Part shown: positions 883 to 61,279 of the stretch, one piece after another | Layout: each line of letters opens with the position of its first letter | How positions within the stretch are numbered: the first letter of the stretch is position 1 | Source: an uncultured Prevotella sp. | GTDB taxonomy: Bacteria; Bacteroidota; Bacteroidia; Bacteroidales; Bacteroidaceae | Reading direction: 5' to 3' | Assembly: GCA_900315545.1 (NCBI GenBank) | Contig: OMZM01000005.1 | Location: forward strand, 1-64,000 | Length of the DNA: 64,000 nt | The notes under the pieces: model-generated | Databases searched by the model: none | Told to the model about the DNA's origin: nothing | The model's input: only the letters and a program-made list of their open reading frames with translations | Translations under genes and position numbers: made by a program

Positions 883-964
883 CATATTTAAAATTATACG
901 GGAAAACTTTCTGTCAATTATTTCTTACGGGCTACCCCGCCGCTTCGTCTTAAAGAAAAAGGGC

Positions 965-1418
965 TAATCAATTTTGGGGTCGTTTACTGTCGCGTGAGTG
1001 CCCGCGAAAGTCGTTTCCGAAATCTGAGGGGCAAAATATGGCAGTATTTTGAATGTTGTCGTAATTGTCTGAGGGTCAGAATTATAGCGTGAAGTATGGC
1101 GATTTTGTGCGCGAAAGAGAAGTGTTAAAATTGTCAAAGAGTATGTTTGAGATTGTCAAACACACTGTTTGAGGCGGTCAGACATAGTGTTTGGGGGTAT
1201 AGGGCATAGTGTTTTGCAGGGCGAAAATGAAGAAATAGGCGCGTCAAAGATACTCTTTGACAATTTTAACAGTTATCGCCGACTCGGAAATTAACAGATT
1301 TTTGCGGTTTCAGAGAGTAAAAAAATTCTATTTGGAGAGTTTTTCTCTGTCAAAAGTTTTCATAATTTTCGGGGTCGTCAGGGAAGGCGCGAACACTTTG
1401 GCACGGTTTTTGCAGGGA
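965..1418 (+). repeat. Intergenic repeat family, copy 1 (phased-dyad element)
   Basis: This is one of five ~450-bp copies in the window. It begins at TAATCAATT, runs through the conserved block GTTTACTGTCGCG, the dyad array and the block TGTCAAAAGTTTTCAT, and ends at GCACGGTTTTTGCAGGGA. Inverted 28-nt arms lie at 1123-1150 and 1244-1271 and pair at 27 of 28 positions. Seventeen-bp dyads start at 1134, 1156, 1178, 1200 and 1244, so all sit on a 22-bp grid with the slot at 1222 degenerate. It sits downstream of malQ, tail side towards malQ. No transposase, terminal inverted repeat or target duplication is visible. Outer boundaries are approximate. Confidence 0.9.
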
Positions 1419-1466
1419 GATGATAACGGGAACGATAACGGGAACGGGAAATATTGACGGGAACGC
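1419..1466 (+). repeat. Degenerate (NNNAAC)n hexamer tract after repeat copy 1
   Basis: Units such as GATAAC, GGGAAC and GCTAAC follow each other in hexamer phase directly after the 450-bp element. Similar tracts accompany copies 4 and 5. Confidence 0.75.
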
Positions 1467-18961: not shown

Positions 18962-19133
18962 ATATTTTTCTACTTTTTTACTCCGACGGCGGTTTGCGTG
19001 GCGCATTACCGGCACTTGGGCGAAGGTGCCTGACAAAGCGATGCCTATTAATATATAATATGTGTAATGTCGAATACGGATGCGGGCGACGGGGCATGGC
19101 GAGACGAACGCTTGCCGTGCAGCAGAAAAGATA
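18962..19133. other. Non-coding stretch between the rplC promoter and repeat copy 2
   Basis: I see no gene, clear hairpin or promoter here. It is flanked by the rplC promoter on one side and the second 450-bp repeat on the other. Confidence 0.5.
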
Positions 19134-19580
19134 TAATCAATTATCAGTCGTTTACTGTCGCGAGAATGCCCGCGAAAGTCGTTTCAGAAATCAAAGGGGC
19201 AAAATATGCCTAAAATTCGCATACATACATAATCTACTGGCTGTCAATTTGTTAGCCGCGAATATAGTGATTTTGCGCTTGAAATGCATGTGTTAAAATT
19301 GTCAAAGAGCATGTTTGAGATTGTCAAACAGTGTGTTTGAGGCGGTCAGACTTAGTGTTTGAGGGTGTCGGGCACTATGCCTGACATGCCCGAAAGGACG
19401 AAACAGAGGGCTCAAAGATACTCTTTGACAATTTTAACACTCGCTGCCGACCCAAAAATTTACACATTTTCACACTTTCATCAACTGTTCCGCATCTATT
19501 TTGCAACTTTTTCCCTGTCAAAAATTTTCATCATTTTTCGGCTCGAAAGAAAATTCCGACGAGTTTGGCACGGTTTTTGC
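19134..19580 (+). repeat. Intergenic repeat family, copy 2
   Basis: The same start (TAATCAATT) and end (GGCACGGTTTTTGC) blocks as the other copies, 447 bp. Arms lie at 19291-19318 and 19412-19439 and pair at 26 of 28. Dyads start at 19302, 19324, 19346, 19368 and 19412, on the same 22-bp grid. It lacks the hexamer tract seen at copies 1, 4 and 5, and its 5' half resembles copy 3 most. It lies about 190 bp upstream of the secreted-protein island. Confidence 0.9.
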
Positions 19581-19733
19581 TGCATGTTTTTGTCATACTA
19601 CTGAAAAATTGAAACTTATGCACTCCGTACATTATTTACCACTTTTGCATATCAAAACAACTATTTTCGAGCAAAATGTATAATAAATGTTAAAATTTGC
19701 GTCCATAATGATAGTTTTATTCATTTTTTACTT

Positions 19734-19770: not shown

Positions 19771-20247
19771 ATGAAGAAACTTTACCTGATTCTGTTATTT
19801 GTACATATTATTTCATCAGGTATTTCTGCTCATGGCAGCAAGAAAGCAGAGCTGACCTTTCCGCGCCGCGTGGTAATGGAGGAGTTCACCGGCACATGGT
19901 GCGGCAACTGTCCTCGCGGCATGGTAGGCATCAGCGGCAGCATCAAGGCACCCATCGTCTGCGGCGAGAAGCAAGGCTATACCGACATAATAACAACCCT
20001 CAACAACAAGGTCATACAGGACAAGAGGCGCCTCTATGCCGTCGTTCTGCTCATCGACAGGACTACGGGCAGGATAGTGAATGCCGACCGTGCGGAGATA
20101 CAGCCTTACGGCACGTCAGCAATAGAGACGACTGTCGCCACGCAGCCTGCCGACGGCAAGACCTACAACCTGCAAGGACAGCAGGTAACACGCCCCGACA
20201 GCAAGGGAATATACATCAGAAACGGAAAGAAACACTTAACTAAATAA
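19771..20247 (+). CDS. Secreted thioredoxin-like protein, internally shortened
   Basis: The 158-residue product has a signal peptide (1-20), then EEFTGTWCGNCPRGM with a CxxC at 44-47 as in thioredoxin-fold proteins, and a short tail ending GIYIRNGKKHLTK. It resembles the 613-residue protein at 24342-26183, but the long N-terminal region and most of the thioredoxin fold are missing. The text jumps from just after the CxxC motif to the segment DRTTGRIVNADRAEI that lies near the C-terminus of the long protein. It is therefore probably a deletion remnant. Whether it still folds is doubtful. Confidence 0.75.
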   Translation: MKKLYLILLFVHIISSGISAHGSKKAELTFPRRVVMEEFTGTWCGNCPRGMVGISGSIKAPIVCGEKQGYTDIITTLNNKVIQDKRRLYAVVLLIDRTTGRIVNADRAEIQPYGTSAIETTVATQPADGKTYNLQGQQVTRPDSKGIYIRNGKKHLTK

Positions 20248-34434: not shown

Positions 34435-34539
34435 TTACAAATAAGCCGTAATGCTGTTACAAATAGTCCGTAACAGCGTGACAGATAGTCTGTAACACTT
34501 TTACAGGCACTCTGTAATACGATTACAAAACGCTTTCTG
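34435..34539 (+). repeat. Phased dyad array, TTAC-N9-GTAA at 22-bp pitch
   Basis: Four 17-bp dyads occur at 34435, 34457, 34479 and 34501: TTACAAATAAGCCGTAA, TTACAAATAGTCCGTAA, TGACAGATAGTCTGTAA and TTACAGGCACTCTGTAA. A degenerate fifth starts at 34523. The pitch is exactly 22 bp. The last unit ends about 75 bp upstream of the promoter of the PASTA gene. It looks like an ordered set of sites for a dimeric DNA-binding protein; no binder is known. Confidence 0.8.
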
Positions 34540-43752: not shown

Positions 43753-43822
43753 CTTACTACTGCCAGGCGAAAGCATGCCGTGCACAATAAAAACATCGGG
43801 GGGCTTTCCTGTCAAAAAACAC

Positions 43823-44270
43823 TAATCAATTTTCGCCCGTTTACTGTCGCGAGAATGCCCGCGAAACCCATTTTGAAAATCGCAGGGGCAAAATACGCCC
43901 AAAATTCGCACGCTTACATAATCCGCTGACCGTCAGTTTATTAGCCACACACATGCGCTTTTTGAGCGCAAAATGCAAGTGTTAAAAATGTCAAAGAGCA
44001 TGTTTGACAATGTCAAACACACTCTTTGAGAAGGTCAGACACTGTGTTTGGTACTATCAGACACAGTGTTTAGTAAGCACAAAAAGGCAAAATAGCCGCC
44101 TCAAACATACTCTTTGACAATTTTAACAAATATCGCCGACCTTTATTTTCACATATTTTTACACTTTCAGCGCCTGTTCCGCATCTATTTTGCAAGTTTT
44201 ACCCTGTCAAAATTTTTCATACTTTTTCGTCCCGAAAGAAAATCTCGCACACTTTGGCACAGTTTTTGCT
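43823..44270 (+). repeat. Intergenic repeat family, copy 3
   Basis: 448 bp with the same start and end blocks. Arms lie at 43980-44007 and 44101-44128 (26 of 28 paired). Dyads start at 43991, 44013, 44035, 44057 and 44101 on the 22-bp grid. Here the fourth slot is better preserved (TATCAGACACAGTGTTTAG) than in copy 1. It lacks a hexamer tract. It lies about 90 bp upstream of the promoter of a two-component system. Confidence 0.9.
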
Positions 44271-44357
44271 GTAACACGAAACGGCAGACGCTGAACACAA
44301 TTTTCAGCATCGCGAAAATATAAACTCACGTAAAATATGATTGTATTGTTAAAGGTT

Positions 44358-44417: not shown

Positions 44418-45131
44418 ATGGCAGACAGAAAAAGAATATTGGTTGTCGACGACGAACAAGACTTGTGCGACATTATAAAGATTAACCTGTCAAAGGCTGG
44501 TTACGATGTAGACACTGCTTATTCATCGGAAGAAGCGCTGAGGAAAGACATCACATCATATCATCTTCTCCTGCTGGATGTCATGATGCCAGGCATCTCC
44601 GGCTTTCAACTTGCGCAGATACTGAAAAACGACCACCTGACGAAGGACATCCCACTGATATTCCTTACAGCCAAAGATGCAGAAGACGACATGCTGAAAG
44701 GTTTCGACATTGGTGCAGACGACTATATTCCCAAACCTTTTTCAGTCAAGGAACTCATTGCGCGCGTCAATGCCGTGATAAACCGCACCTCGAAAAACAA
44801 CAGCAGCAAGCCACTGAACGACGAATTTACAGACGACATAATATCGTTTAAGGGACTGACTATCAATGCAAACCGCAAGGAAGTAACCATCGACGGCAAT
44901 CCTGTGTCGTTCACACCGACCGAGCTCTACATGATGCAACTGTTTCTCTCGAAACGCGGAACGGTATTCTCAAGACAGAAACTCATCGAACTTGTATGGC
45001 CTGAGAACGTCATCGTTACAGACCGCACCATTGATGTCAACATCAACAGAATCAGGAAGAAATTAGGCGACTATTCAAAACACATCATCACACGGCAAGG
45101 TTTTGGATATTATTTTGAGGAGAACATATAA
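44418..45131 (+). CDS. OmpR-family response regulator
   Basis: The 237-residue protein has an N-terminal receiver domain with VVDDEQ (acidic pair 11-12), the phospho-acceptor in LLLLDVMMPG (Asp54), the LTAK Thr/Lys motif and KPF. A winged-helix DNA-binding domain follows (about 140-237: FTPTELYMMQLFLSKRGTVF, VDVNINRIRKKLG). It is followed 14 bp later by its histidine kinase. Target genes are unknown. Confidence 0.95.
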   Translation: MADRKRILVVDDEQDLCDIIKINLSKAGYDVDTAYSSEEALRKDITSYHLLLLDVMMPGISGFQLAQILKNDHLTKDIPLIFLTAKDAEDDMLKGFDIGADDYIPKPFSVKELIARVNAVINRTSKNNSSKPLNDEFTDDIISFKGLTINANRKEVTIDGNPVSFTPTELYMMQLFLSKRGTVFSRQKLIELVWPENVIVTDRTIDVNINRIRKKLGDYSKHIITRQGFGYYFEENI

Positions 45132-50800: not shown

Positions 50801-51370
50801 CACTTTGCTTATGTCGGAGAATCCTGCCTGACTCACGAGGGCGTCGGTCAGCTGGTAGACACCGCTTGCCGGCACGCGTATCTTTGCCCACTTGCCTTCA
50901 GCCAGCACCGAGTGTGCCGCGTATCTCTCGCTTCGTGTGCTTTCCGCGCGCCTGATGCTTCTTCGCTCCGAGCGCTTCAGCGGTGCCGATTCCACGTTGA
51001 GCATGAAGCTGACGAGTATCTGCTTCTTGCCGTTTCTCATCACCAGCGGCACAAACGACACGTCGAGGTATCCCTTGCGGCGGTTTATGCTGACGTGGGT
51101 TTCTATATCCGGCATTTCCTTCAGCGGCATGCCCGATATCGAGTCGTAGCGTGCTGCCTCGCCTGCCGTCATGTCGAGAAACTCAGGATAGCGCAGGCTT
51201 ACGCTGTATGTTGAGTCGGCATAGTGCTCGCCGAGCGGTATGCTATAGCTGAAACGCGGCAGCAGACTGTCTATGCGCACCTCGTCTGCCGTGAGGTTGA
51301 AAAACCTCTGTGCACCGACGGTGTTCCATGCACAGACGAGCATTATTATCGTGAGTAGCTTTTTCATCAT
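47813..51370 (-). CDS. porU: Type IX secretion sortase PorU
   Basis: PorU is the C25 (gingipain-like) cysteine protease that removes the C-terminal signal from T9SS cargo and attaches the protein to the surface. The 1185-residue protein has a signal peptide. The catalytic His lies in MNYAGHGSE (about 689) and the Cys in WVINACDIMPFD (about 722). A tail with GRLLWKHSEGG and GVYLYRVLVSSDGG resembles the type A sorting domain, as in other PorU proteins. It precedes porV by 66 bp and follows an FAH-family gene by 57 bp. Confidence 0.95.
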   Translation of the reverse strand: MMKKLLTIIMLVCAWNTVGAQRFFNLTADEVRIDSLLPRFSYSIPLGEHYADSTYSVSLRYPEFLDMTAGEAARYDSISGMPLKEMPDIETHVSINRRKGYLDVSFVPLVMRNGKKQILVSFMLNVESAPLKRSERRSIRRAESTRSERYAAHSVLAEGKWAKIRVPASGVYQLTDALVSQAGFSDISKVKIYGYGGNLQNEKFDADGLIATDDLKEVPTYKAGNRRLFYAKGPVSWKSPTDSTRVRNPYSDYGYYLITQSDTEPLTVDSLAFAGSFYPANDDYHSLREVDNYAWYHGGRNLYESDPITVGKTKKCELTVPSGISRGTLYVSMSAENNTTVSIALNDSTLGTMTLTTRSSLDRAALKAMAFKVDNMKETNTVSITTTQGGTARVDYITATFATPRPMPRLTTAQLPTPEYVHNITNQDLHAHGQADMVIIIPTTQVLRSQAERLAEYHRANDNMRVNIVPADELYNEFSSGTPDANAYRRYMKMLYDRAESEADMPKYLLLYGDCAWDNRMLSSDWRLTSPDDFLLAYESENSISEFSCYVNDSWFALLDDGEGISPTVSDKVDVGVGRFPVRTEEEARTMTDKTIAYMENKNSGDWQNTIMFMGDDDPKLSNVNTHMRDINDVAEEVRKAHPAYMIKKVMWDAYTRETSSTGNRYPDIENIVKQQQANGALIMNYAGHGSESSMSHERVLVLDDFQNFQNANLPLWVINACDIMPFDASMATIGEEAVLNKKGGAVAVYSTSRTVYQDRNKKMNSVFMRYALSLDSDGKPLRLGDAVRLSKNNINGRDVNDIHYHLLGDPAMALHLPTYDVVVDSINGVKIKDLRPADYPQLQAGTIAKISGHIEYGGETVSDFNGQMTATVRDTEETIVCKMNHPQQTTNPFTFKDRPKMLFNGSDDVKNGRFSFSLAVPLDINYANETGQLTIHATTDDHRLTAHGETNSFIVGGTGTMTNDSIGPSIYCYLNSPSFTDGGDVNCTPYFVAQITDKDGINASGTGIGHDMELIIDGEMARTYSLNDNFRFDYGSYTTGSTHYYIPELEPGRHQLKFRAWDVQNNSSTATLSFNVVKGLTPSLYSVDCTNNPATTSTTFIISHDRMGSQIDVELEIFDTSGRLLWKHSEGGVTANAAYTIDWDLTVDGGQKLQTGVYLYRVLVSSDGGKQVSKAKKLIVINNK

Positions 51371-51427
51371 AACATCTTTTATAACGGAAAAACTTGCTGT
51401 TTATTGTCTTTTATCGCATAACACCCT

Positions 51428-52045
51428 TTACTTCACATTGAATTCCAGCACTTTCTCGTCTTCTATGTATCCCTCCAGGTGGTCGTCTATCTTCACTGGT
51501 CCCACGCCTACGGGCGTGCCGGTATACAGCAGGTCGCCTGTCTTCAGCGTGAAATACTGGCTGATGTAGCTCACTATCTCGTCTACCTTGAAGAGCATGT
51601 CCGACGAGCAGCCCTGCTGCACGGTCTGTCCGTTTATGTCGAGGTGGAAATGTATAGCCTGTATGTCGCGGTAGCGGTCTATCGGTTTCCACTGCCCTAT
51701 GACCGCCGAACCGTCGAATCCTTTGGCTATCTCCCACGGGTGCCCAGCCTTCTTCAGTCGTGCCTGCACGTCGCGGGCAGTGAAATCGATGCCTACCGTT
51801 ACGGCATCGTAGTATCTATGGGCAAACCTCACGGGTATGCTCTTGCCCAGACGGCATATCCTCACCACGAGCTCTGTCTCATGGTCTATGCGCCCCATTT
51901 CTTCAGGCAGGAAAAACGGCTTGCCGTCCTTCAGCAGTGCCGAGTCGGCTTTGGTAAATATCACAGGCTCGGCTGTGCGCTCGAAGCCACGTCCCATCTC
52001 TTCGTTGTGCTTGGCATAGTTCATGCCTATGGCAAAAATCTTCAT
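51428..52045 (-). CDS. Fumarylacetoacetate hydrolase family protein
   Basis: The 205-residue product is the short FAH form that typically acts on acylpyruvates or related 2-oxo acids. It has IFAIGMNYAKHN at the start and the metal-binding acidic residues in HETELVVRI and GIDFTARD. Near the end are LKTGDLLYTGTPVGVGP and the C-terminal I.DDHLEG...F. I chose the ATG of MKIFAIGMNY. The frame extends 35 codons upstream but that part is not family-like. Its substrate cannot be deduced; the porU neighbour does not help. Confidence 0.9.
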   Translation of the reverse strand: MKIFAIGMNYAKHNEEMGRGFERTAEPVIFTKADSALLKDGKPFFLPEEMGRIDHETELVVRICRLGKSIPVRFAHRYYDAVTVGIDFTARDVQARLKKAGHPWEIAKGFDGSAVIGQWKPIDRYRDIQAIHFHLDINGQTVQQGCSSDMLFKVDEIVSYISQYFTLKTGDLLYTGTPVGVGPVKIDDHLEGYIEDEKVLEFNVK

Positions 52046-52107
52046 TGCTGTAATCGTTTTTATGTATGTATTCTGTCGCTGCACCACGCAACGACGGTTT
52101 ATGGTTA

Positions 52108-52115
52108 CAAAATTA
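52108..52115 (-). promoter_or_regulatory. -7 element for the FAH-porU-porV-ispF run
   Basis: The minus strand reads TAATTTTG about 65 bp upstream of the FAH gene. The -33 region is not clear. Confidence 0.45.
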
Positions 52116-52165
52116 CATAATTCCCGACTAATACCATCATAACGTAACATTTTTTAGGAGAAAGA

Positions 52166-52242
52166 ATGATAATGTGAACGGGGATGACAACGGGAACATT
52201 AACGTTAACGATAACCTTGACGGAACGGAAACGATAACCTTA
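52166..52242. repeat. Degenerate hexamer tract upstream of repeat copy 4
   Basis: Units such as GTTAAC, GATAAC, GGGAAC and GGAAAC occur in approximate hexamer phase just before the 450-bp element. Confidence 0.6.
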
Positions 52243-52274
52243 CCTTCTTAATTCGCTCGCAAGAGAGAAAAGAC

Positions 52275-52728
52275 TAATCAATTTCGGGGTCGTTTACTGT
52301 CGCGTGAGTGCCCGCGAAAGTCGTTTCCGAAATCTGAGGGGCAAAATATGCGAGTATTTTGAAGGTTGTCGTAATTATCTGAGAGTCAGAATGATAGCGT
52401 GAAGAGTGGCGGTTTTGTGCGCGAAAGAGAAGTGTTAAAATTGTCAAAGAGTATGTTTGAGATTGTCAAACACACTGTTTGAGGTGGTCAGACATAGTGT
52501 TTGGGAGTGTCGGGCACTGTATTTTGCAGGGCGAAAAACATGAAATAGACGCGTCAAAGGTACTCTTTGACAATTTTAACAGTTGTGTCTGGTCAGGAAA
52601 TTAACAGATTTTTGCAGTTTCAGGGGCTAAAAATTTTCTATTTGGAGAGTTTTTGTCTGTCAAAAGTTTTCATATTTTTCGGGGTCGCAACGGAAGGCAC
52701 GAACACTTTGGCACGGTTTTTGTAGGGA
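52275..52728 (+). repeat. Intergenic repeat family, copy 4
   Basis: 454 bp, most similar to copy 1. Arms lie at 52433-52460 and 52554-52581 (26 of 28 paired). Dyads start at 52444, 52466, 52488, 52510 and 52554 on the 22-bp grid. It is flanked on both sides by hexamer tracts and fills most of the 840-bp gap between the FAH gene and the WYL regulator. Confidence 0.9.
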
Positions 52729-52786
52729 GGTGCTAACGGGAACGGGAAATGCTAACTTTAACGTTAACGATAACGGGAAATATTGA
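52729..52786 (+). repeat. Degenerate hexamer tract after repeat copy 4
   Basis: GCTAAC, GGGAAC, TTTAAC, GTTAAC, GATAAC and GGGAAA units follow the end of the element, as in copy 1. Confidence 0.7.
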
Positions 52787-52846
52787 CGATGGCAGTCATC
52801 CTCTTCAGTGGGGCGGAGAGCGGATGGCGCTTTGCACTCCTCACTT

Positions 52847-52862
52847 GCAAATAATTATTTGC
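52847..52862. repeat. Perfect 16-bp palindrome GCAAATAATTATTTGC
   Basis: It lies 23 bp beyond the stop codon of the WYL regulator. No T-run follows on the minus strand, so it is not a clear terminator. It might be a protein-binding site, but nothing else supports that. Confidence 0.4.
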
Positions 52863-52885
52863 GTTTCATGCTTGACATAAGCTGT

Positions 52886-53773
52886 TTAACGTGTCGTGGC
52901 GTTGTCGATGTACTCCTTGAAGCTGTCGGGCGCAATGACCTCTATGTCGTCTTTCAGTCCCTTAACAAAGCGTCCGATGCCCAAGAAACTGCACACGGGC
53001 ATGGCAAGTCGCCAGCGGCTGTCGTCGGTCTGCGACAGATATTGCTCGGCATCGGGGAATTCTTCTACGAGGATTGTCGACGACAGCCGTCCCATGCTCA
53101 GCTCTACGGTCTGCGGATTTTCCGACGAGAACATGAAGACGTCGGTGAACATCTGCTTGTGGCGGTCGGCATAGCTCCACCTGAGGTCGATGAGCTCGAC
53201 GCTCTCCATGCGCGAGAGCTTGAACGTCTTGCACTGCTCGGACGCCAGTTCGTAGCAGCGCACCTCGTTGTTGTTGTTCATCAGCATGAAGGGCTCCACT
53301 ATGCGGTCTGTCTTCGTGTTGCTGTGATTTGAGCGGTAGCCGCAAATCTTTATCATCTGCTCGAACTTTATAGCCTCGTAGATGACCGACACATTGTTGG
53401 CATGCTGCTCCCTGAGGCGCACGTCCTCTATGATGTTGAAGTCGTAGAATCGCTCCAGCTTCTGCTTTATGGTGCGCACCTGCGGCGTTTTGTCGTCGGC
53501 ACCCTCTATGAGGTGTCGCAGGAAGATAGCCTCGTCTTCGGTAAAGTCGAGCATGGTGAACAGCTTTCTGAAGAACGGCGAGCGCCGGTCGATATGATAG
53601 TAGCGTCCGCGCTTCTCGAAACGGAAGTCGCTGAAACGCAGGAAATCGAAGTAATAATACAGGTTTCGCCGCGAGATGTGCAGCCGTTCGCACAGCTCAT
53701 CCACCGTGTAGGTCCTGTTTTCGGCAAGCATGAGAATGAGGTCGAGCTCGCGTTGCAGTTTGTCGTGTCGCAT
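52886..53773 (-). CDS. WYL-domain transcriptional regulator
   Basis: The 295-residue protein has an N-terminal helix-turn-helix (about 20-45: YTVDELCERLHISRRNLYYYFDFL). A WYL-type ligand-sensing domain follows from about 120, with VSVIYEAIKF, EPFMLMNNNNEVRCYEL and SRMESVELI. WYL proteins sense nucleic-acid or nucleotide ligands and regulate DNA-damage or defence genes in several bacteria. No such genes are adjacent here. It lies 26 bp after rnhB on the same strand. Confidence 0.85.
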   Translation of the reverse strand: MRHDKLQRELDLILMLAENRTYTVDELCERLHISRRNLYYYFDFLRFSDFRFEKRGRYYHIDRRSPFFRKLFTMLDFTEDEAIFLRHLIEGADDKTPQVRTIKQKLERFYDFNIIEDVRLREQHANNVSVIYEAIKFEQMIKICGYRSNHSNTKTDRIVEPFMLMNNNNEVRCYELASEQCKTFKLSRMESVELIDLRWSYADRHKQMFTDVFMFSSENPQTVELSMGRLSSTILVEEFPDAEQYLSQTDDSRWRLAMPVCSFLGIGRFVKGLKDDIEVIAPDSFKEYIDNATTR

Positions 53774-53799
53774 GATGATGTGTTTTTGAAGTTGTGATG

Positions 53800-54444
53800 T
53801 TATTCCCCGAAGTCGAAAGTCAGTTCCTGCGGCGGCAGCAGCGTGAACGTGCGCCGGTGCAGCGGCGACGGTCCGTAGAGCCTGATGGCATCGCGGTGCG
53901 CCTTCGTGGGATAGCCCTTGTTGTGCTGCCAGTCGTAGCAGGGATAGCGTTCAGCCTGCTCAAGCATGTATTCGTCGCGGTGAGTCTTGGCAAGTATCGA
54001 CGCAGCAGCAATGGAGAGATACTTGCCGTCGCCCTTCACGATAGTGGTATGCGGCAGCGGCGTGTCGGCGCGACGGATGCCGTCAGCCAGCAACGGGCAG
54101 TAGCTGCGGAAGCGGTTGCCGTCGACGATGACCGCCTCGGGACGCACGCTGAGACCGTCGAGCGCACGGTGCATGGCGAGGATTGACGCATTGAGAATGT
54201 TCATCCTGTCGATTTCCTCAGCCGTTACAATGCCCACAGCCCACGCTACGGCATCGCGCTCTATGACACGGCGCAACGCCGCACGGCGCTTTTCCGACAA
54301 CTGCTTCGAGTCGTTGAGGTCGGCGTTACGATAGTCGTCGGGCAAGATGACGGCAGCAGCATAGACACTGCCTGCCAGACAGCCGCGACCAGCCTCGTCG
54401 CAGCCTGCCTCTACCTTATTAATATAATAATGATTTTCCAGCAT
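53800..54444 (-). CDS. rnhB: Ribonuclease HII
   Basis: RNase HII removes ribonucleotides and RNA primers from DNA. The 214-residue protein has the acidic motif AGCDEAGRGCLAGSVYAAAV (Asp16, Glu17), NDSKQLSEKRR, DGNRF and the C-terminal YPTKAHRDAIRLYGPSPLHR. The active-site carboxylates are present. It has its own promoter upstream. Confidence 0.97.
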   Translation of the reverse strand: MLENHYYINKVEAGCDEAGRGCLAGSVYAAAVILPDDYRNADLNDSKQLSEKRRAALRRVIERDAVAWAVGIVTAEEIDRMNILNASILAMHRALDGLSVRPEAVIVDGNRFRSYCPLLADGIRRADTPLPHTTIVKGDGKYLSIAAASILAKTHRDEYMLEQAERYPCYDWQHNKGYPTKAHRDAIRLYGPSPLHRRTFTLLPPQELTFDFGE

Positions 54445-60303: not shown

Positions 60304-60432
60304 ATGAACGGGACCTCAATGTATTGTTTCCATTGTCAGGAAACATCAAAAGGAACAGGATGCACCGTCAAGGGTGTGTTAGATATTCCCGTCCCCGTGC
60401 CCGTTAGCAATTCCCGTCCCAGCTATCGTTAA
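60304..60432 (+). pseudogene. hcp: Truncated hydroxylamine reductase (hybrid-cluster protein), 5' remnant
   Basis: The frame begins MNGTSMYCFHCQETSKGTGC and continues TVKGV, the N-terminus of Hcp with the cluster cysteines CxxC and the next Cys. It then runs into unrelated LDIPVPVPV, which is the hexamer tract belonging to repeat copy 5. The fourth cluster cysteine and everything after it are gone. The normal protein has roughly 550 residues, so this cannot be functional. The frame closes at 60432. The original start may be the inner ATG at 60319 (MYCFHCQE). Confidence 0.85.
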
Positions 60433-60472
60433 AGTTAGTCTTTCCCGTTCCCGTTATCGTTCCCGTTATTTT
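60385..60472 (-). repeat. Degenerate hexamer tract of repeat copy 5
   Basis: Read on the minus strand it gives GGGAAC, GATAAC and GGGAAA units in hexamer phase, the same kind of tract that follows copies 1 and 4. It joins the repeat to the hcp remnant. Confidence 0.7.
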
Positions 60473-60926
60473 TTCCCTGCAAAAACCGTGCCAAAGTGAA
60501 CAGGCACTCTCCTCCTACCCCGAAAAATATGAAAACTTTTGACAGACAAAAACTCTCCAAATAGAAATTTTACAGCCCTCGAAACTGCAAAAATGTGTTA
60601 AATTCAAGGTCGGCGATAAGTGTTAAAAATGTCAAAGAGTACCTTTGAGGCACCTATTTCGCCTTTTTGCCCTGCCAGACACAGTGCCCGACACCCCCAA
60701 ACATACTCTTTGACCGCCTCAAACAGTGTGTTTGACAATCTCAAACATACTCTTTGACATTTTTAACACTCCCCTTTCACCATCAGAAACGCTATACTTA
60801 TCGCTAACAAATTGACTGTCAGATAATTACGATAACCCTCAAAATACTCGCATATTTTGCCCCTCTGATTTCCGAAACGACTTTCGCGGGCACTCACGCA
60901 ACAGTAAACGACCAGAAAATTGATTA
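60473..60926 (-). repeat. Intergenic repeat family, copy 5 (minus strand)
   Basis: 454 bp, inverted relative to the other four. Arms lie at 60741-60768 and 60621-60648 (26 of 28 paired; span 148, one base shorter than the others). Dyads lie at 60741, 60719, 60697 and 60675, 22 bp apart, plus one at 60632. A position in the arm that is T:A in copies 1, 2 and 4 is A:T here, changed on both arms. It sits between the hcp remnant and ybeY. Confidence 0.9.
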
Positions 60927-61279
60927 GTCATTGCCATCCGCCGCATGCTCCGTCGGAATGTCAAAGATGAAGGTTATGGCTACTTTTCAGTTTCATTTAC
61001 GATAGAGTGATGCCACCTGTATTCCTGCAAAAGGCAACTATGACTTCACTATAAGCGAAAAGCGGCACAGACAAAGATGCCCGTACCGCTTTCCAGTTAT
61101 ATTTATTCTGACTTTGCAAAGCTGTTACTTATGCATACGCTGTCTATCTCCCGCTCGGTGAGTCCTGTGCGGCGTGTCAGTCAGGAACGCTTCTATCTCT
61201 GCGCTTGTGCAGTTGGCAAACAACGCCGATGCCTTTTAGTCCCTGTGTCAGTTCACTTATGTTGGCTTGCGTTAAGTCG
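60927..61279. other. Non-coding gap between repeat copy 5 and ybeY
   Basis: I find no intact gene. On the minus strand around 61070-61280 short frames read LTQANISELTQGLKGIGVV and TGLTEREIDSVCISNSFAKS in different phases. This may be a decayed coding region. No trace of the rest of hcp was found. Confidence 0.4.

Follow-up and report, generated by a model that had tools for sequence, protein, structure and literature searches.

Sigma-54 promoters of the NtrC/glnAp2 type combine a GG-N10-GC promoter with upstream 17-bp dyads, and the uncultured Prevotella genome studied here resembles them in both features as well as in carrying rpoN and an AAA+ activator. It departs from them in that its dyads belong to an element with about 135 copies, no orientation to genes, exchangeable dyads on a 22-bp grid and extra conserved blocks. 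Putative mobile promoters are likewise promoter-bearing intergenic repeats, whereas the present element is of the sigma-54 type and has an operator-like array and a fixed architecture.

The sigma-54 chaperone regulon of Bacteroidota (PMC12316311) has the same promoter type, which in Prevotella stands before htpG, dnaK, groES and grpE. There each operon has one promoter, whereas here the promoter belongs to an amplified, array-bearing cassette. BrickBuilt MITEs of Porphyromonas gingivalis are, in the available portion of their description (PMC4596501), also multi-copy Bacteroidota elements with a minisatellite of short tandem repeats. Unlike the 19 elements named there, ours was seen to have neither inverted ends nor target duplication, and it holds a rigid promoter module. 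Similarly, REPINs, in the section of the source used here (PMC8049555), are a repeat population that persists inside one bacterial genome, but our element is much longer and bears a promoter. A literature search by title or abstract start found no paper on this element, which is not proof of absence.

A dispersed element of fixed architecture

The window, the whole 64,000-nucleotide stretch that was analysed, is part of contig C33 in a 2.29-Mb draft genome of 56 contigs and 92% completeness. Its dyads belong to an intergenic element of about 460 bp that is repeated well over a hundred times in this genome. This context escaped the original prediction, which described the array itself; on our reading, the array is a single module within a dispersed element, at whose end stands a putative sigma-54-type chaperone promoter. 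The order of parts reads as a 5' block, the dyad array on its 22-bp grid, a CTATTT...TGTCAAAA block and a predicted sigma-54 -24/-12 promoter. In copy 1, delimited by BLAST and profile matches (954..1420, plus strand), the conserved 5' block TTTACTGTCGCG-N-GA-N-TGCCC-N-CGAAA occupies 983..1009 (plus strand), the conserved block TTCTATTT...TGTCAAAA-N-TTTTCAT, taken from the alignment column profile, 1326..1363 (plus strand), and the sigma-54-type -24/-12 promoter TTTGGCACGGTTTTTGC, located by motif search, 1397..1413 (plus strand) at the 3' end.

Three further copies lie on the plus strand and one on the minus strand. Copy 2 (19122..19590, plus strand; dyads from 19302; promoter 19564-19580) is upstream of an ORF at 19771, and copy 3 (43811..44279, plus strand; dyads from 43991; promoter 44253-44269) is upstream of a response-regulator gene at 44418. 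In copy 4 (52264..52733, plus strand; dyads from 52444) the promoter, at 52707-52723, is a variant that ends in TTGT, and the copy is oriented towards the 3' end of a convergent gene. Copy 5 is on the minus strand (60470..60930), with dyads at 60757-60632, one base lost, and its promoter at 60479-60495 (minus strand).

Genome-wide, an independent search for the 5' block gave 135 matches within three mismatches, and the 3' motif TTTGGCACNNNTTTTGC has 136 sites within one mismatch, with none for the reversed control in either case. A few of these 136 sites stand outside elements as ordinary promoters, for example by grpE and dnaK. A stricter joint pattern matched 111 times in this genome and not once in 79 relatives. 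Among the places listed, the element is found on at least 47 of the 56 contigs.

Hexamer arrays of the form AACNNN (AACGGG, AACGAT, AACCTT, AACGTT) directly follow or precede a number of element copies; in the window they lie at 1415-1490, 52168-52245, 52725-52790 and 60400-60470.

The spacing between parts is nearly constant. Among 106 5'-block copies with enough sequence, most of them fetched through a promoter or whole-element match and the set biased accordingly, the promoter is present in 99, and in 89 of these at 412-414 bp. To reduce this bias, we took 12 5' blocks for which no listed promoter was seen by eye (a few more of this kind lie at contig ends); five have a perfect -24/-12 sequence ending TTGT, six have none and one is at a contig edge. 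In 91 of the 92 copies that have a left arm, the arm starts 140 bp beyond the 5' block, and the right arm stands 143-144 bp before the promoter in 97 of 99. The column profile of 98 aligned copies has near-invariant blocks at the 5' block, the array arms, CTATTT...TGTCAAAA-N-TTTTCAT and the promoter; the linkers between them are close to saturation, yet the spacing is rigid. When one half of the copies served to define the blocks and the other half to test them, nearest neighbours diverged 10-18 times less in blocks than in linkers. The draft, which we assume to be a short-read assembly, may mix linker sequence between copies, and these block and spacing statistics are less affected by such mixing.

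Three loci have odd lengths from 5' block to promoter (L042, L082 and L100, with 448, 427 and 373 bp); L042 and L082 carry what seem to be short internal duplications in the array.

The dyad array and its 22-bp phase

The 17-bp dyads first noticed in the window are real: TCAAA-N7-TTTGA occurs 15 times, three per element copy, where 100 dinucleotide shuffles give an expectation of 0.15. Pattern search and the aligned copies agree on three exact matches in copy 1, all on the plus strand, namely slot 1 (TCAAAGAGTATGTTTGA, 1134..1150), slot 2 (TCAAACACACTGTTTGA, 1156..1172) and slot 6 (TCAAAGATACTCTTTGA, 1244..1260). Slot 3 (TCAGACATAGTGTTTGG, 1178..1194, plus strand), read from the sequence and the aligned copies, is likewise a clear dyad. 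Copies 2 to 4 have exact matches at the same offsets, and copy 5, on the minus strand, has them at 60741, 60719 and 60632, which places its one lost base between slots 2 and 6.

For the slot statistics we used the 91 of 98 genome-wide aligned copies that have both TCAAA-type arms and counted as a dyad any slot with at least five of seven pairs, a level that shuffled 17-mers reach in 0.4-2.4% of cases. Slots 1, 2 and 6 are dyads in all 91 copies and slot 3 in 84. Slot 4, which had been placed on a par with these, was overstated: at 1200..1216 (plus strand) copy 1 has a weak dyad with three of seven pairs by eye, and the slot, mostly degenerate, qualifies in 14 of 91 copies, with slot 5 in five. 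The proposed 22-bp phase holds in this larger alignment, where slots 1 and 6 lie 110 bp apart in 77 of 91 copies, 109 bp in 13 (one base lost) and 124 bp in one. The inter-unit register TTTGA-N5-TCAAA, offset by 11, is also symmetric; one protein's site could lie in either register, the dyad or the inter-unit one.

Exchange of the dyad type on a fixed grid

A second dyad type occupies the same grid. Of 111 copies, 102 are of the TCAAA type, eight carry TTACA-N7-TGTAA dyads in the first slots and one is partial; the seven aligned copies without TCAAA-type arms all belong to this variant. Measured from the start of the 5' block, each of the eight swapped copies has TTACA dyads at 129, 151 and 173 bp, a TCAAA dyad at 239 bp (110 bp after the first dyad) and the promoter at 391 rather than the usual 413 bp, exactly 22 bp less. 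The array has moved one 22-bp step nearer to the 5' block, and the grid is unchanged. The replacement of TCAAA by TTACA dyads on an unchanged grid is strong evidence that the grid matters at the level of DNA and that the dyads are operators.

The TTACA type also occurs outside any element. A stand-alone array of four TTACA-N7-TGTAA units (at most two mismatches) on the 22-bp grid lies at 34435..34522 (plus strand), upstream of a PASTA-domain gene (34670).

A sigma-54-type promoter shared with chaperone genes

We take GG-N10-GC with TGGCAC and TTGC to be the sigma-54 -24/-12 consensus. The 3' end of the element, TTTGGCAC-N4-TTTGC, is such a sequence, and TTTGGCACGGTTTTTGC of copy 1 agrees with it; some element copies end in TTGT instead. 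The genome has one strong rpoN match and one at the cut-off, together with one full AAA+ sigma-54 activator with an HTH_8 domain (C17:3989-5231). Three partial activator matches score 24-38 bits and clear the cut-off as well, but equal or stronger ones come from every one of the 14 control genomes, which include archaea.

The exact motif TTTGGCACNNNNTTTGC occurs 98 times in this genome. Thirty-five other Prevotella genomes hold 51 occurrences in total (0-7 each, ten genomes with none), against a total of two for the reversed control. Genes following 46 of these sites were named by eye from their N-termini: 33 sites precede htpG (18), clp (6), dnaK (4), groES (3), grpE (1) or a dnaJ-like gene (1), mostly 37-60 bp before the start codon, and 13 precede none of these. 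Pfam/NCBIfam profiles agree for one representative each of htpG, clp, groES, grpE and the dnaJ-like gene from these genomes, and for dnaK, grpE, htpG and trxA of the present one. The positions of the motif agree with the chaperone genes given as sigma-54 targets in Bacteroidota in the consulted part of PMC12316311.

In the genome studied here, grpE and trxA have sigma-54 promoters of their own. Elements lie immediately upstream of dnaK and htpG (L081 and L104), and dnaK additionally keeps a second sigma-54 motif of its own. Single copies, such as those before dnaK and htpG, may drive genes. As a population, however, the copies do not face genes preferentially: at the 93 of 111 sites with both neighbours called from simple ORF calls, a set that includes a few sites not in elements, 18 are co-directional with the neighbouring genes and 21 opposed, with 35 in divergent and 19 in convergent settings. 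By eye, many downstream genes are ordinary housekeeping genes.

Proposed function of the module

Read directly from the DNA are the parts, their rigid spacing, the copy number, the constraint on blocks, the dyad swap and the identity of the promoter with the chaperone-gene motif. An ordered DNA operator array for a dimeric protein, as originally predicted, is still the best reading of the dyads, given that the 22-bp phase is kept, that the swap respects the grid, that no RNA covariation was seen and that other Prevotella have arrays on the grid with other half-sites. We propose a dispersed sigma-54 promoter module of about 460 bp with exchangeable operator arrays, in which the dyad array serves as the operator part, and give this explanation an even chance. 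Since its parts keep exact spacing and its binding sites swap type, the element resembles a regulatory module that can be reused more than it does a random repeat.

Under this proposal, one or more dimeric helix-turn-helix regulators would occupy successive dyads along one face of the DNA. Together with the resident AAA+ activator, the bound regulators would govern how sigma-54 RNA polymerase forms open complexes, most likely as part of the protein-stress response. The module may have arisen from a sigma-54 chaperone promoter, spread through intergenic space and been kept by selection on its binding blocks. If it works as read, about 3% of the genome (135 copies of about 460 bp in 2.29 Mb) would be a single stress-linked control cassette, the operator type could be swapped without a change of helical phase, as in a natural combinatorial promoter design, and the module would allow the role of sigma-54 in Bacteroidota to be addressed directly.

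A broader and more tentative version extends the idea to Prevotella species as a group. They might carry genome-wide modular sigma-54 cassettes whose fixed-grid operator array is replaced as a whole, with no change to chassis or promoter. A hundred loci would in this way be connected to different dimeric regulators, all under a single stress sigma factor. Exchange here refers to the TCAAA and TTACA types within one genome and to other half-sites in other species. We regard this extension as possible and rather doubtful.

Alternative explanations

The strongest competitor, unlikely in our view and still to be taken seriously, is a non-autonomous selfish repeat of the MITE or REPIN kind, in which the blocks would be recognition sites of a copying machinery, and promoter and dyads would serve spread or be carried along. 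Such a repeat would fit the many copies in a single species against hardly any in its relatives (none of 79 by pattern; among 398 congeners, with two candidates scored per genome, a long match in G005 only), as well as the intergenic position (simple ORF calls) and neutral orientation of the copies. It is less easily reconciled with the ends: no target-site duplication appears (longest shared flank word 4.80 versus 4.76 in shuffled flanks, 94 copies), and inspection of the consensus found no terminal inverted repeats, its ends TAATCAATTTT and TTTTTGC not being inverted copies. Moreover, blocks are conserved throughout the element and not only at its ends, an existing promoter type is reproduced exactly, and the plasmid and phage collections hold no match. 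Were the element a selfish repeat after all, it would be one that replicates a perfect stress promoter.

Alternatively, the element could be architectural, with protein arrays and poised sigma-54 polymerase marking about 135 chromosome-organising or insulating sites, one per roughly 17 kb. Neutral orientation, rigid spacing and, among the places listed, a distribution over at least 47 of the 56 contigs suit this idea, which nevertheless gives no reason to keep a perfect -24/-12 promoter and has to contend with arrays upstream of true sigma-54 promoters in other species; we consider it improbable. The original prediction had named a nucleoid-organising or a regulatory factor as the binding protein. 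Nucleoid organisation keeps some probability because the copies ignore gene orientation, but of the two a regulatory module upstream of a promoter has the better support.

NtrC sites are dyads of 7-3-7 form upstream of a -24/-12 promoter. The resemblance of our dyads to them, together with the finding of only one full activator with an HTH_8 domain beside three partial matches of a weak kind, would make the dyads upstream activator sites of the sole resident sigma-54 activator (C17:3989-5231). We hold this to be very unlikely. The recognition helix of the activator is almost invariant in 20 genomes (two of the 22 searched gave no match), 13 of which have at least three TCAAA-grid matches with differing sequences, and the dyad sequence does not track the helix across the 20. 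A search upstream of 34 native promoters gave no dyad common to them. With a near-invariant helix and two dyad types in one genome, the resident activator could not read both types by one rule, and the reader of the dyads is probably a protein other than the lone activator.

Finally, hairpins of a transcribed RNA, the reading with next to no probability, would account for the whole array being a long imperfect palindrome (reverse-strand self matches) but are rejected, since an Rfam search gave no match and no covariation was seen. The array, whose columns vary little, contains none of the 45 strongest coupled column pairs listed. In the arm pairs, 159 cells are broken and 11 are changed on both sides, and the only variable pair within the conserved arm gives P = 0.68, invariant pairs being uninformative. 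The dyad type is swapped as a whole. Compensatory changes of an RNA-only structure, the outcome that would have spoken for RNA over DNA, were not seen.

In two other genomes, G177 and G153, a sigma-54 activator and the LptE-like protein that follows it (by eye) form one open frame of 588 and 571 aa, respectively (L313 and L314).

Related arrays and alleles in other genomes

When two mismatches are allowed, the TCAAA grid pattern matches 61 genomes out of 399 in the genus, counting the present one, with at least three matches in 29; the reversed control, which is no clean null, is present in 32 of 399, nine with at least three. Eight genomes (G008, G046, G094, G126, G177, G211, G213 and G223) have 11-55 matches to the reversed pattern AGTTT-N7-AAACT on a 22-bp grid, perhaps arrays with yet another half-site. 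Of 43 loci fetched from other species, 32 have chains of 3-6 units with species-typical half-sites. None of nine G195 loci passes the chain test, though 22-bp units are visible in them.

Generic 22-bp dyad arrays exceed the 99% shuffle threshold upstream of five of the 46 sigma-54 sites of other genomes (G329, G195 twice, G293 and G004, several genomes having been chosen for their arrays) and downstream of none; no array reaches it at the other 41. Upstream of sigma-54 motifs in G195 lie dyads and a CTATTT...TGTTAAA block, and one of these motifs stands 192 bp before groES.

A plasmid or phage origin of the element was set aside, copy 1 having no match in the plasmid and phage collections. A scan of viral contigs gave seven single pattern matches, none of which fits the element profile (E up to 10).

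A scan of genome contigs returned at least 15 stretches with matches. Among the matches listed, contigs of RUG13423 (uncultured Bacteroidales) and RUG753 (uncultured Prevotella), genomes that we take to be from the rumen, hold stretches 98% identical to the window and, because of this identity, belong to the source species or are misbinned parts of it; on this basis we call the source a rumen Prevotella. Comparison of two strains at copy 4 (L233 and window 51207-54223) shows no difference in 177 block positions, 25 differences in 137 linker positions and 25 in 2555 flank positions; linkers differ by 18% and flanks by 1%, and the blocks are identical. At copy 3, the RUG13423 allele reaches only 90% identity, with differences at four of 128 block and 19 of 112 linker positions; that of RUG753, covering part of the element, differs at none of 99 and three of 73. 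Such differences indicate conversion between copies or mosaic short-read assembly, and for this reason we do not rely on linker histories within a copy.

Among the 398 congeners, with two candidates scored per genome, a long match was found only in G005, which has one truncated element copy; RUG624, among the matches listed, has the same truncated copy. In G005 this copy lies beside an ORF that by eye resembles an IS3-type transposase.
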